A stretch of DNA of 46,927 bases. Source: Methylophilaceae bacterium. Its GTDB lineage: Bacteria; Pseudomonadota; Gammaproteobacteria; Burkholderiales; Methylophilaceae. Made by a program: the position numbers and the translations under genes. Within the stretch, counting starts at the first letter, position 1. Each line of letters starts with the position of its first letter. The stretch is from the NCBI GenBank assembly GCA_029244935.1, contig JAQWQF010000008.1, forward strand, positions 1-46,927, in the 5' to 3' direction. A model generated the notes under the pieces. The model had not been told where the DNA came from. It worked only from the letters and a program-made list of their open reading frames with translations, and ran no database searches. Positions 42,386 through 46,927 of this stretch are shown in pieces.

Positions 42386-43549
42386 ATGAAAATATATTTA
42401 GTTGGCGGTGCTGTTAGAGATAAAATATTAGGGATTCCAGTAAAGGATCGGGATTACTTAGTTGTGGGTAGCACCCCTGAAGAAATGGTTGAATTGGGAT
42501 ACAAGCCTGTTGGAAAAGATTTTCCTGTATTTATACATCCTAGAACTAAAGAAGAATATGCGCTTGCAAGAACAGAAAAAAAGGTTGGCAAGGGCTATCA
42601 TGGATTTAAATTTTATACATCACCTGATGTAACTCTTGAGGAAGACCTGAGTAGAAGAGATATTACGATAAATGCAATAGCCGAAGATGAGGATGGAAAT
42701 ATCTATGATCCATTCAATGGTAAGGACGATATAAAAAATAAAATTATTCGACATGTTACTGATGCTTTTATCGAAGATCCTTTAAGGGTACTCAGAGCAT
42801 CGAGATTTGCAGCATTAGATGTTAAATTTAGAATCCAGACAGAGACATTTGAATTAATGAGTGCAATGGTCTTAAGTGGCGAGCTAAAGTCGCTGTCAGT
42901 AGAGCGCGTAGTTAAAGAGTTAAAAAAGGGATTACAAGGAAGAAATCCAGAAATTATGCTTCATTATCTCTGTGAGTGTGGTGCATTGAATGAAGTTTTC
43001 CTAGACCTTCCAAACCCAATGACTCCATCTTTTTCTAAAGACTTTGTTAGCGTAGGTTTAGCTATGAAGCAATCCTCAAAACCTTTGGAGGCTGAATCTA
43101 AATTGATTATGTTGCTACTGGTTTCATACTTTGGTAAACATTATCCAACTGAGTCTCATAAAATTTGGATAGAGAAACAAACATATTTATTAAAAGACTT
43201 AAAAATATCGAGCCTGTCAGTTAAAATATTTTGGAATATTATAGATGAAGAGCTAAACCTTAAAGAGTTTTTAACATTAAAAGTAGAAGATAAATTAGAT
43301 TGTTTATATCGACTTGATTTTTTTAGGCGCCCAAATATTATTTCAGAGATTTTGAATATAATCACAGTATTTTATAAAGCATTTGAAATAAAGGCTTCAA
43401 CATTTGAAGATCTTAATAAACTCCTAGTTCTTTTTTCTAATGAAATAAATCAATTAAAAATTAAGTTAGATACTTCAAAATCTGGGGATGAAATCAAGGA
43501 GTTTGTTTATCAGGAAAGGCTTTCATTGCTCAAAAAAATTAGTAATTAA
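42386..43549 (+). CDS. cca: CCA-adding tRNA nucleotidyltransferase
   Basis: The 387-residue class II enzyme adds or repairs the CCA end of tRNAs. The N-terminal catalytic motif is [25 protein letters not shown] with the metal-binding D-x-D in [20 protein letters not shown] and the ATP/CTP-selecting [14 protein letters not shown] follow. It is slightly shorter than the E. coli protein and I see no clear HD-domain metal motif in the C-terminal part. Its stop shares TTAA with the convergent HAD gene. Confidence 0.95.
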
Positions 43550-44157
43550 AATAAATCACTGAGCCTAAATATTTTTTTATCAATATATTGGAATTCATCT
43601 TTCTTGTTGGTTAGCCAAATTGTAGATAATCCAAATTGTTTGGCAGTTTTAAGATTTTCTTTTACATCATCTACAAAATAAGCTTTATTTATATTATATT
43701 TTTTTAAAAATAAGCTCATAGAGTCTTCGTTTGGTTTTGGTCTAAAATTGGAGTCTTCGATAGTAAAAATCTCATCAAAATATTCTTCAATCTTACATAT
43801 CTTCATAACTTGGTTAGTGTAATTTCTAGGTGCATTTGTGTAAATAATTTTCCTTCCCTTAATAAGTGAAAGAGTTTCCTTTAAGCATGGCATAGGAATA
43901 ACATGCTCCTTAAAGTTATTTATTGTATGGGTCTTTTTTAGAAAATCAATTGGATCTATATTGAAATTTTCAATTAAGCCCTGGAGTGTAGCACCATATT
44001 TATTCCAATACTGCTCTCTTAAAATACTGGCTTCTTTGATACTTATTTTGAAATTTGAGCTAATGTATTGATTCATTTTGTTATTTACAATCGGGAAAAT
44101 TCTTGATTGTGCATCATGCAGTGTATTGTCTAGATCAAAAATCCAGGTAGAACTCAA
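43546..44157 (-). CDS. HAD-superfamily pyrimidine 5'-nucleotidase-like hydrolase
   Basis: This 203-residue HAD phosphatase has motif [11 protein letters not shown] (D8 nucleophile, D10), motif II in YTNAPRNY, a lysine in FRPKPNE and motif IV in FVDDVKENL. The [12 protein letters not shown] beginning and helical cap resemble the Sdt1/pyrimidine 5'-nucleotidase group often found near argB in betaproteobacteria. The true substrate is unproven. It starts one base after the argB stop and is probably the last gene of the rsmE-argA-argB transcript. Confidence 0.82.
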
Positions 44158-44158
44158 C

Positions 44159-45031
44159 TTATTGTGCTTTTATTAAAGTACCCACGCCTTGATCGGTTAA
44201 TATTTCAAGTAGTAATGCATGCTCAACCCTACCATCAATTATGTGGACACTATTAACGTTAGTCTTTGCAGCTAGAAGCGCTGCTTGAATTTTTGGTAGC
44301 ATTCCTCCTGAAAGAACTTCTTTTTTTATCAGGCTTTCGATTTCTTTTGGAACAAGTCCAGTTATTAGATTTTTTTCTTTGTCTAATACCCCTTTAGTAT
44401 TTGTCATGAGCACTAACTTCTCAGCATTAATTACTTCTGCAAGTTTGCCAGCGACTAAATCTGCATTTATGTTGTACATTTTATTATCCTTACTAAAACC
44501 GATTGGCGATATAACTGGGATAATTCCGTGATCAGTAAGAGCCTCAATAAATAGTGGGTTAATACTCTCTATTTCACCAACATGACCAAGGTCTATGCTG
44601 CCGCTCTGTGTATTTTTTCTATCAACTATTAATTTCTTTGCTCTTATAAAGCCTAACGCTTCTTTTCGAGAGAGGCTATTCGCCTTACCCCCAATAGTTT
44701 TTATTAAATTTACTATCTCACTGCTAATTGATGTTAAAACTTCATAAACTACAGACATCGTTTCCTCATCCGTTATTCTCATTCCATTATAAAACTCACC
44801 TTTCTTACCTATCTTATCGAGGTTTTCATTTATCTGGGGACCACCACCATGAACAATCACTGGATTCATACCAACCAGTTTAAGTAATACAACATCTTTT
44901 GCAAATGAGTGCTTTAGATTCTCATCTATCATAGCGTTCCCACCATATTTAATGACAATAGTTTTACCAGAGAATTTTTTTATATAAGGCAATGCCTCGC
45001 TTAAAATTTTTGCTTTTTCATTTGGTGTCAT
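44159..45031 (-). CDS. argB: Acetylglutamate kinase ArgB
   Basis: The 290-residue amino-acid kinase phosphorylates N-acetylglutamate in the second step of arginine synthesis. Motifs are [11 protein letters not shown] with the catalytic lysine, [23 protein letters not shown] and [11 protein letters not shown]. The N-terminal extension ahead of IVIKYGGNA is long enough to hold the helix seen in arginine-inhibited, hexameric ArgB enzymes, so feedback inhibition is plausible but not shown. It lies 33 bp downstream of argA and uses its product. Confidence 0.97.
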
Positions 45032-45064: not shown

Positions 45065-46627
45065 TTATAGCTTTTTTGTGAAAAATTTTGAGTTTCGCTC
45101 AACATGGTAAATTTTTCTTCTTTCAGCGGGCATTGAATCTATATGAGTTTCGACAAAACCTTTTTCTTTAAACCAATGCTCAGACTGTGTTGTAAGAATA
45201 AAAGCATATCTAGAATTTATTTTTTTCTCACAATAATTCAATAATTTCATTCCAAAACCTTGTCTTTGGTAATTAGTGTGAATTGCAAAACAAGAAATTT
45301 CTGACATATTCTTGTATGGATATAGAGCAGCACACCCAATCAAATCATGATTATATTCAATAACAATAAAATTCTTTAAATCTTGCTCAATTTGCTCATT
45401 TGCTCTTGTTATTAATTTTCCATTCATACCTAATGGCTCAATAAGTTGATATATTGCTTTAACATCTTTGACTGATGCAGGCCTTATTTTCTCTAATGCA
45501 TATTCAGTTAAAATCGTACCAGATCCTTTGTCCGTATAAAGCTCTTCAATTAATGAGCCATTAGTATTTCTATTAATAAGATGTATTTTTTCGACGTTTT
45601 GCTTAATAGCAAATAAGCTACTTTTAAGAATATTAAGGTCTTTATATGAAATATGTGCTGCATTCTCTGGTGAAGAATTTTTTTCAATATTTTGTATTAA
45701 ATTTTTAGCTTTTTTAGTTGTCATTTCAGGGATTAATTCTCCTCTTTTATTGAGAACTCCATCTGAGTCTACAAAGTAGATAAGCTTATCTGCCTTAATA
45801 GATCCAGCAATATAAGCTGCAGTTTGTTCGTAGGATAGATTAAATATTTCACCAACCGGTGAAAATCCTATTGGAGAAATAAGTACTATTTCGTTTTGAG
45901 ATAGCTTGTCTAAAATTGCATTGTTATCGACTTTTCTGATCTGACCCGTATATTCCATATCAACGCCATCAATAACGCCTATAGGCTTGGCTGTTATAAA
46001 ATTACCACTTGATACTTTAATATCGCTCCCTGCCATTGGTGACCCAGACATACTTGATGATAAGGTAGCTTGAATTTCAGTGTGAATTCGACCATTAACT
46101 TCAATGATATGTTCTAGCGATTGCTTATCAGTAACTCGTTGATTTCTAACTAAACGCGTTGGCTGTTTGGTGGCAATTAATTTATGATCAATGTGAGGTC
46201 TAATACCGTGAATCAAAACAAGTTTAATATTCAACGAATGAAGTAAATTAATGTCGTGACTTATTTGTTTTAATTGCTCGTCTTTAAGAACCTCCGCACC
46301 AAAAGCAATTACAAATATTTTTTTATTAAATTGATAAATAAACTTTGCAGATAATCTAAAATGCTCAACAAATGAATTTCTTGGTCCACTCAGATCTTTT
46401 TGAAGAGGAGTTGAATCAAAAAATATTTGCGGAGACACATTGAGTGTTTTAGCTATTCTTTCAAGGAGGTCGACAGATATATTAATTTCACCCCGCTCAA
46501 TGCGGGACAAGCTACTAGTATTTATTTCTACTTTTTTCGCTAATTGATTTAAAGTCAATTTTTGTTCTTTACGCAAAAATTTTATTATATCTGGTATTTT
46601 ATTTTTAATATTTTGCATATATCGCAA
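45065..46627 (-). CDS. argA: N-acetylglutamate synthase ArgA fused to an N-terminal XRE helix-turn-helix
   Basis: The single 520-residue frame has three parts. Residues about 13-70 form a Cro/C1-type helix-turn-helix (LTLNQLAKKVEINTSSL, then SRIERGEINISVDLLERIAK, ending NVSPQIFF). From about 86 (FVEHFR) to 375 is the amino-acid-kinase-like domain of ArgA, with LLHSLNIKLVLIHGIRPHID and SSGNFITAKPIGVIDGVD. Residues about 380-520 form the GNAT acetyltransferase with RQGFGMKLL and LTTQSEHWFKEKGF. E. coli ArgA is 443 residues and starts at the equivalent of residue 85 here, so the HTH is an addition. An alternative start at M4 keeps the HTH. The enzyme makes N-acetylglutamate from glutamate and acetyl-CoA and is usually arginine-inhibited. 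The DNA-binding role is inference. Confidence 0.92.
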   Translation of the reverse strand: MRYMQNIKNKIPDIIKFLRKEQKLTLNQLAKKVEINTSSLSRIERGEINISVDLLERIAKTLNVSPQIFFDSTPLQKDLSGPRNSFVEHFRLSAKFIYQFNKKIFVIAFGAEVLKDEQLKQISHDINLLHSLNIKLVLIHGIRPHIDHKLIATKQPTRLVRNQRVTDKQSLEHIIEVNGRIHTEIQATLSSSMSGSPMAGSDIKVSSGNFITAKPIGVIDGVDMEYTGQIRKVDNNAILDKLSQNEIVLISPIGFSPVGEIFNLSYEQTAAYIAGSIKADKLIYFVDSDGVLNKRGELIPEMTTKKAKNLIQNIEKNSSPENAAHISYKDLNILKSSLFAIKQNVEKIHLINRNTNGSLIEELYTDKGSGTILTEYALEKIRPASVKDVKAIYQLIEPLGMNGKLITRANEQIEQDLKNFIVIEYNHDLIGCAALYPYKNMSEISCFAIHTNYQRQGFGMKLLNYCEKKINSRYAFILTTQSEHWFKEKGFVETHIDSMPAERRKIYHVERNSKFFTKKL

Positions 46628-46629
46628 TT

Positions 46630-46659
46630 TTTATTTAATAAATACTATATTTTATACTA
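46630..46659 (-). promoter_or_regulatory. Candidate promoter/operator region of argA
   Basis: The 43-bp gap between rsmE and argA is almost pure AT. It holds a 13-bp odd-centred palindrome (46630-46642, arms TTTATT/AATAAA) and two direct ATACTA repeats at 46642 and 46654, 12 bp apart; on the minus strand the latter read TAGTAT. A TATAAA-like -10 overlaps. Such motifs occur by chance in AT-rich DNA, but the region is where a site for the HTH of ArgA would be expected. Confidence 0.25.
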
Positions 46660-46670
46660 AATTTATCTAA

Positions 46671-46927
46671 TTATGAAAAATCACCATATTTAAATTGTAT
46701 TATCGATAAAATACTTAAGGGGGCTGTTTCTGTTCGAAGTATTCGGGGCCCTAGTTTTAAAGAGGTGTATTTATAACTATTAGCTAGCTTCAACTCCTCT
46801 TCTGAAAATCCACCCTCTGGCCCAATAAATATAATAATATTACCTTCATTTAGAGCCCCTAAATTTTCTATAGAAGCCTGACCGCTTGGAGTTAGAATTA
46901 ATTTAAGAGTTTTTTTATTGAATTCAT
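46671..46927 (-). CDS. rsmE: 16S rRNA m3U1498 methyltransferase RsmE, C-terminal part
   Basis: The frame enters at the right window edge and reads leftward to TAA at 46671-46673, giving about 84 codons. The SPOUT-methyltransferase signature IGPEGGFSEEEL is followed by LGPRILRTETAPLSILSIIQFKYGDFS, the knotted SAM-binding end of RsmE. It N3-methylates U1498 of 16S rRNA. The 5' part is outside the window. It lies 43 bp upstream of argA on the same strand, so the two may share a transcript. Confidence 0.93.
   Translation of the reverse strand, partial: EFNKKTLKLILTPSGQASIENLGALNEGNIIIFIGPEGGFSEEELKLANSYKYTSLKLGPRILRTETAPLSILSIIQFKYGDFS

Follow-up and report, generated by a model that had tools for sequence, protein, structure and literature searches.

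Does an enzyme of arginine synthesis in Methylophilaceae carry a DNA-binding head of its own, and if so, what does that head control? The question is raised by one gene of the window, the whole stretch of 46,927 nucleotides that was analysed (contig JAQWQF010000008.1 of assembly GCA_029244935.1), whose host genome (1.25 Mb in 32 contigs) is 95% complete. Positions 45065-46627 of the minus strand form a single uninterrupted ORF of 520 aa counted from a TTG codon; an ATG at residue 4 (46616-46618) is the likelier start. The first-pass annotation had described this frame as a helix-turn-helix (HTH) followed by a full-length ArgA with kinase-like and GNAT domains, and a search with Pfam and NCBIfam profiles agrees. 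The HTH_3, AA_kinase and GNAT matches each lie above their Pfam cut-offs (55.8 bits against 23 for HTH_3, with a conserved recognition helix), and residues 84-520 match the ArgA equivalog NF003641 with 507.2 bits against a cut-off of 344. The gene, its parts and its neighbours are as follows:

45065..46618, minus strand: coding sequence of HTH-argA, with the ATG as probable start; the ORF extends to the TTG at 46625-46627
46424..46585, minus strand: XRE-type helix-turn-helix, residues 15-68 of the 520-aa frame (Pfam HTH_3, E 4.8e-15; conserved in 32 aligned proteins)
46376..46420, minus strand: variable linker from the HTH to the ArgA N-terminal helix, residues 70-84 (from the alignment; dN above that of the HTH)
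45572..46321, minus strand: amino-acid-kinase-like domain, residues 103-352 (Pfam AA_kinase, E 1.8e-25)
45515..45544, minus strand: arginine-binding motif ELYTDKGSGT, residues 362-371 (published motif, with Y at the third place)
45149..45376, minus strand: GNAT acetyltransferase domain, residues 418-493 (Pfam Acetyltransf_7, E 4.9e-10; substrate and catalytic residues mapped)
44159..45031, minus strand: argB, the next gene and probable operon partner (TIGR00761, 221.7 bits, cut-off 151.3; 33-base gap to argA)
46671..46925, minus strand: rsmE-like rRNA methyltransferase gene (3' end), lying upstream of argA (Pfam Methyltrans_RNA, E 2.2e-22)

In the loci of the small-genome genera 1 and 15, argB directly follows argA in all cases but one (L031, whose ORF list skips argB). 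A gene for a HAD-type pyrimidine 5'-nucleotidase lies after argB in the window (43546-44157), and a similar HAD gene starts downstream in L031, L055 and L214.

An artefact joining two genes had been named as a possible refutation, and this proved not to be the case: the same fusion is found in relatives 44-86% identical, two of which share 83-86% identity with the window protein, the HTH has a dN lower than its dS, and the HTH is present on ArgA in 24 of the 24 Methylophilaceae genera sampled, among the matches listed. The presence of the HTH in a genus was judged from matches beginning within it, from the sequences themselves (genus 16) or, for genera 8 and 9, with a second query. ArgA matches were obtained in 28 of the 31 genomes of the host's genus and, among the matches listed, in 179 of 187 Methylophilaceae genomes (24/24 genera) and in all 119 with a completeness of 90% or more and a contamination of 5% or less. 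With the second query, 26 of 30 further Methylophilaceae genomes matched, several of them partially. Some genomes of the family gave fragments or no match only, and in G055 and G027 argA is apparently frameshifted or fragmented. G013 and G181, which seemed to have lost the HTH by deletion or frameshift, were discarded as exceptions, as both genes contain runs of N.

Outside the family, no HTH was found on ArgA among the matches listed, either in 300 genomes of the order (ten of them Methylophilaceae), where matches start at query residue 45 or later, or in 370 genomes of the class (with the host genome itself as the only member of Methylophilaceae), where they start at profile position 41 or later. 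Rare exceptions beyond the matches listed could exist. Likewise, none of the 17 loci that were read (sixteen HTH-less argA loci of the order, plus L024) has an HTH in the argA frame. The classical ArgA of Neisseria gonorrhoeae (2r8v and further entries) shares with the fusion the enzyme portion in full, the arginine motif and most of the catalytic residues, but aligns only from fusion residue 81 and hence lacks the HTH.

Two separate frames deserve mention. In L089 (G246, from another family of the order) a 374-aa XRE-like protein (198-1322, minus; HMM E 0.0064) is encoded on the strand opposite to an HTH-less argA and ends ∼220 bases from it; the pair is possibly a two-gene form of the same control, or a product of chance. 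In G128 a stand-alone frame of 143 aa (G128:C20:89153-89350) is 42% identical to residues 1-66 of the L062 HTH and, from this resemblance, might be a source or a paralogue of the HTH of ArgA.

The HTH is well preserved. In the recognition-helix region (numbering from the ATG), L37, S38, E41 and G43 are invariant in 32 aligned proteins, and R39, R42 and N36 are nearly so, N36 being Ser in the window protein. In all 11 pairs computed the dN of the HTH was below its dS, with values of 0.094 and 0.608 for the window protein and L003, and of 0.069 and 0.148 for the weakest pair (L008/L009); the ratio was at most 0.16 in ten pairs and 0.47 in the remaining one. In contrast, the linker, which differs in length and sequence between genera, had a dN above that of the HTH in all ten pairs that have a linker. 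Judged from these rates, the HTH is under purifying selection. The second residue after ERG in the recognition helix is Gln where the variable base of the operator (see below) is C, and mostly Leu or Ile where it is T, with exceptions within the window's genus. The raw p of this covariation is about 1e-6 without correction for descent; only two independent changes occurred on the tree (median p 0.5), and for this reason it was rejected as evidence.

The enzyme part keeps most of the residues expected of an N-acetylglutamate synthase (NAGS). The gonococcal enzyme (ngNAGS) uses R316, E353, C356, S392, R416, R425 and S427 for substrate binding and catalysis, as given in a portion of PMC4490483; six of the seven are identical in the fusion, and S392 corresponds to Thr479. 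The same portion gives the arginine-binding motif as E-(L/I)-(F/M)-(T/S)-x-x-G-x-G-T, whose E, T, G, G and T are invariant in the 32 proteins, although the window protein (ELYTDKGSGT) has Y for F/M. In ngNAGS arginine binding moves the N-terminal helix (excerpts of PMC4490483 and PMC3236213) and reshapes the hexamer (PMC4490483, likewise in excerpt), with interdomain contacts R255-D334, Y17-N336 and R274-Q362 triggered by arginine (sections of PMC3236213). These contacts are not conserved in the fusion, where the pairs are K-N, F-D and D-N (Tyr17 being Phe96); they are a regulatory detail and do not define the NAGS family. From its residues, an arginine-responsive enzyme-regulator is plausible.

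If the head binds DNA, a target should be sought. Repeated palindromes were seen in the 160 bases before the fused argA genes, and a conserved palindrome, TTTGYATTAAATRCAAA, usually in two copies, could be derived from them; its occurrence upstream of the fused argA is new here. A de novo search for a palindromic motif with two sites per sequence in 48 non-redundant upstreams gave this consensus with 26.9 bits per sequence, whereas 12 dinucleotide shuffles gave 13.5 (sd 0.16). Since shuffles ignore kinship, other arg genes from the family supplied control upstreams, and with 22 upstreams each the motif test gave 28.4 for argA, 19.4 for argC, 17.3 for argG and 15.5 for argJ. The best site reached at least 13 bits in 69 of 76 argA upstreams (the other 7 have none of 13 bits) and two sites of at least 10 bits were present in 60, compared with 0.8% of shuffled argA upstreams reaching 13 bits. 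In the whole argC, argG and argJ loci (66 loci, 271,683 positions, coding regions included), a single position reached 13 bits and ten reached 10. From these counts L005 was left out for want of a recognised HTH word, though it carries an HTH, and so were the duplicates L002, L022, L023 and the window copy.

No operator was found upstream of the 17 HTH-less argA genes (best 2.2 bits), whose GC content is 0.45-0.68 against a mean of 0.31 for the HTH-argA upstreams, and part of this contrast is due to composition; among the 11 HTH-argA upstreams whose GC is 0.40 or higher, 8 nonetheless reach 13 bits. In 17 loci outside the model the spacing was 29-31 bp in all, and in 16 the best site scored 13 bits or more; as a check on independence this carries little weight, because 13 of the 17 come from genus 18, already in the model. 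Among loci L184-L213, 17 passed the HTH search, L191, L197 and L202 were added for the covariation, and the others are fragments or other genes. Where the gene upstream of argA differs, the operator sites remain with argA. In the window the candidate elements are:

46612..46628, minus strand: candidate operator ATTGCGATATATGCAAA (17.4 bits in the motif model; overlaps the ATG; the strict pattern lies at 46613-46627)
46662..46680, minus strand: first operator, weak and probably decayed, on the promoter-like -35 (6.4 bits in an earlier, fuzzier motif model; not among the two best window sites in the final one)
46649..46677, minus strand: promoter-like TTCATA-17-TAAAAT (9/12 matches; weak alone, with 2 in the region and 2.4 in shuffles)

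In seven loci of the host genus, from two branches (L001, L003, L004 and L015-L018), an operator extends over the start codon, and its partner further upstream is either weak or unusually spaced.

Both sites exceeded 7 bits in 64 of the 76 upstreams. Their centres are 28-31 bp apart in 28 of these, 41-43 bp in 8, 50-52 bp in 22 and at other distances in 6, so that the spacing classes step by about one helical turn. In the 30-bp class (29 non-redundant sequences) the match to a -10-like hexamer is best exactly 17 bp downstream of the TTGYAT in site 1, with a mean of 3.93 matches out of 6 and with A2 and T6 in 22 of the 29 (next best offset 12). The peak lies one base further in the 51-bp class (6 sequences), and no clear -10 peak was seen in the 42-bp class (3 sequences). 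Thus in the 30-bp class site 1 sits on a -35-like hexamer and site 2 on the start region, with the -10 in between, which is the layout of a repressor.

The fusion had also been suggested to control other arg genes. For the three genes examined, argC, argG and argJ, this found no backing, as their 155-base upstreams (GC 0.36-0.39) are without the site family, with one site of at least 10 bits in 66; argF starts were covered only where they fall inside the argG loci. Just one site in the 66 control loci reaches 13 bits; it lies 139 bases before argJ in L176 (G081), and the argJ locus of G095 (L173), of the same genus, has no site above 10 bits. With a strict operator pattern, the host genome gave 10 matches against 1 for the reversed control, and 22 genomes gave 115 against 46 (forward counts per genome summed, argA sites included). 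Seven of the nine non-argA matches of the host genome fall inside genes. When 21 of the 22 non-argA matches in G000, G005, G007 and G012 were read, 18 lay inside genes and three between genes (L102, 8.4 bits; L105, 14.9; L112, 11.3); with 18 of 21 inside genes, the non-argA matches are taken to be mostly chance. The intergenic match of L105 (position 1471, contig 29 of the host genome) stands ∼90 bases before a large ORF. The fusion's own gene is its likely target, with room left for a wider regulon.

It had further been proposed that in a compact genome the fusion replaces a separate ArgR, and here the genomes tell otherwise. The arginine pathway is present in the family, since argC, argG and argJ were found in 22 of the 22 Methylophilaceae genomes examined. 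No ArgR (PF01316) match above the cut-off was obtained in 187 Methylophilaceae genomes (two weak matches, in G048 and G175, fall below it) or in 150 genomes of the order, at least five of them Methylophilaceae, with a search that does detect ArgR in E. coli and B. subtilis; PF01316 is not among the Pfam matches of the fusion protein either. As ArgR is missing across the order sample, its absence is not tied to the fusion. Nor is the fusion limited to streamlined genomes: among the matches listed, the near-complete Methylophilaceae genomes with a match span 1.2 to 3.7 Mb, and the fusion also occurs in those of 2-3.7 Mb.

We propose, with a probability of about 0.72 and from sequence comparison, that the fusion functions as an N-acetylglutamate synthase and, in addition, as repressor of its own argA(-argB) operon, arginine being the most likely signal. 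The XRE head would bind one or two palindromes TTTGYATTAAATRCAAA that cover the -35, the -10 and the stretch as far as the start codon, and in so doing would exclude RNA polymerase. The head is joined through the variable linker just ahead of the ArgA N-terminal helix, which in the gonococcal enzyme is mobile on arginine binding; when arginine is plentiful the ring of subunits would be reshaped, inhibiting the enzyme and letting the heads take hold of the operator pair. Five points of this picture are inferences: binding of the operator by the HTH, repression as the outcome, a hexameric ring, an active enzyme, and arginine as the signal. The case for arginine as co-repressor comes from the position of the HTH, directly ahead of the helix that shifts in ngNAGS when arginine binds. 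As a counterpoint, the window gene has one strong operator and a weak upstream partner. The idea of an arginine- or acetyl-CoA-responsive self-repressor, already contained in the first-pass annotation, fares in two ways: repression of its own operon is favoured by the operator over the argA promoter, and a response to arginine is plausible only. A more specific version is that one arginine site governs both catalysis and transcription, ArgA being in itself an arginine repressor, a hexamer with heads that span a pair of operators separated by about 3, 4 or 5 helical turns; this we propose tentatively, at somewhat less than even odds.

The same operator evidence also fits plain autoregulation, in which the head would repress argA according to the amount of ArgA and hold its level steady without a small-molecule signal, arginine acting on the enzyme only. 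The loss of the arginine-triggered interdomain contacts, with Phe in place of Tyr17, is in keeping with this, and a linker varying in length and sequence across genera does not suggest a tight mechanical coupling. Against it speak the arginine motif, in which E, T, G, G and T never vary among the 32 aligned proteins, and the location of the HTH directly before the helix that arginine displaces in ngNAGS; we regard a signal-free circuit as unlikely, if a serious contender. Self-regulation could also respond to a substrate or product (acetyl-CoA, glutamate or N-acetylglutamate) and not to arginine. In PutA-like enzymes the substrate state decides between DNA and catalysis, and the glutamate-site and catalytic residues of the fusion are conserved; but its HTH adjoins the kinase-like, arginine-sensing part and not the GNAT domain, which makes such a signal rather improbable.

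It is also conceivable that the palindromes serve another, unlinked regulator and that the HTH of ArgA acts elsewhere, e.g., on distant genes. The binding protein is assigned here from sequence, and the 115 strict matches against 46 reversed over 22 genomes, argA sites included, would agree with a regulator of wider reach. Yet 18 of 21 other strict matches in four genomes lie inside genes, the sites accompany the HTH-bearing argA and not the 17 HTH-less ones (which are GC-richer), and they stay with argA when the upstream gene changes; we give this explanation a small chance. Smaller still is the chance that the HTH, as a relic or as a domain serving assembly, does not bind DNA: L37, S38, E41 and G43 are invariant in 32 proteins and R39 and R42 nearly so, dN/dS is at most 0.16 in 10 of 11 pairs (0.47 in the other), and a conserved operator adjoins the gene.

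The proposed self-repressing synthase has relatives in kind. PutA, NadR and BirA are enzyme-repressors, in which a DNA-binding domain on a metabolic enzyme regulates the enzyme's own pathway; they differ from HTH-ArgA in the enzyme, partly in the DNA-binding fold, and in the signal. A conserved candidate operator at the own promoter, a feature of self-controlling enzyme-repressors, is found with HTH-argA. ArgR is a hexameric arginine repressor that faces two operator boxes (cf. excerpts of PMC7248756). HTH-ArgA resembles it in the arginine-linked repression proposed, and possibly also in acting as a hexamer at two operator boxes; the two proteins are unrelated, and the HTH-ArgA operator occurs at argA only, among the four arg genes examined. 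The nearest architecture is that of BzdR, termed a repressor in a portion of PMC4985591, which carries an XRE head on a shikimate-kinase-like domain whose enzyme activity is lost (excerpts of PMC3602430). As far as these excerpts go, both proteins consist of an XRE head, a linker and a kinase-type metabolic domain, but the enzyme domain is inactive in BzdR, whereas the enzyme residues are kept in HTH-ArgA. The shikimate-kinase-like C-terminal domain of BzdR/BoxR has no Pfam counterpart in the fusion, which matches AA_kinase and GNAT instead. Excerpts of PMC3602430 also tell of Q1, a bifunctional regulator of HTH plus enzyme that was built artificially; set beside them, HTH-ArgA looks like its natural counterpart. 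The suggestion that such a fusion had not been described before holds for the literature searched on the fusion and its host and on NAGS structures, BzdR and ArgR, mostly open-access and with bioRxiv outside its scope, in which no description of an ArgA with a DNA-binding domain was found; the main text of the NAGS review PMC4490483 has no mention of helix-turn-helix or DNA binding.

To our knowledge enzyme-repressors are few, and each is a model of metabolism talking directly to genes. HTH-ArgA links a DNA-binding head to the enzyme of the first, feedback-inhibited step in arginine synthesis, and is a natural case on which to test the transition from enzyme to regulator. The predicted operator and its spacing rule are directly testable. 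If a single arginine site does serve catalysis and transcription, the fusion would be a living intermediate between enzyme and regulator, of the kind built artificially according to excerpts of PMC3602430. The methanol-eating Methylophilaceae include abundant aquatic methylotrophs, and among the matches listed the fusion is present in every genus sampled; it suggests how argA may be controlled in an order without ArgR in the genomes sampled.
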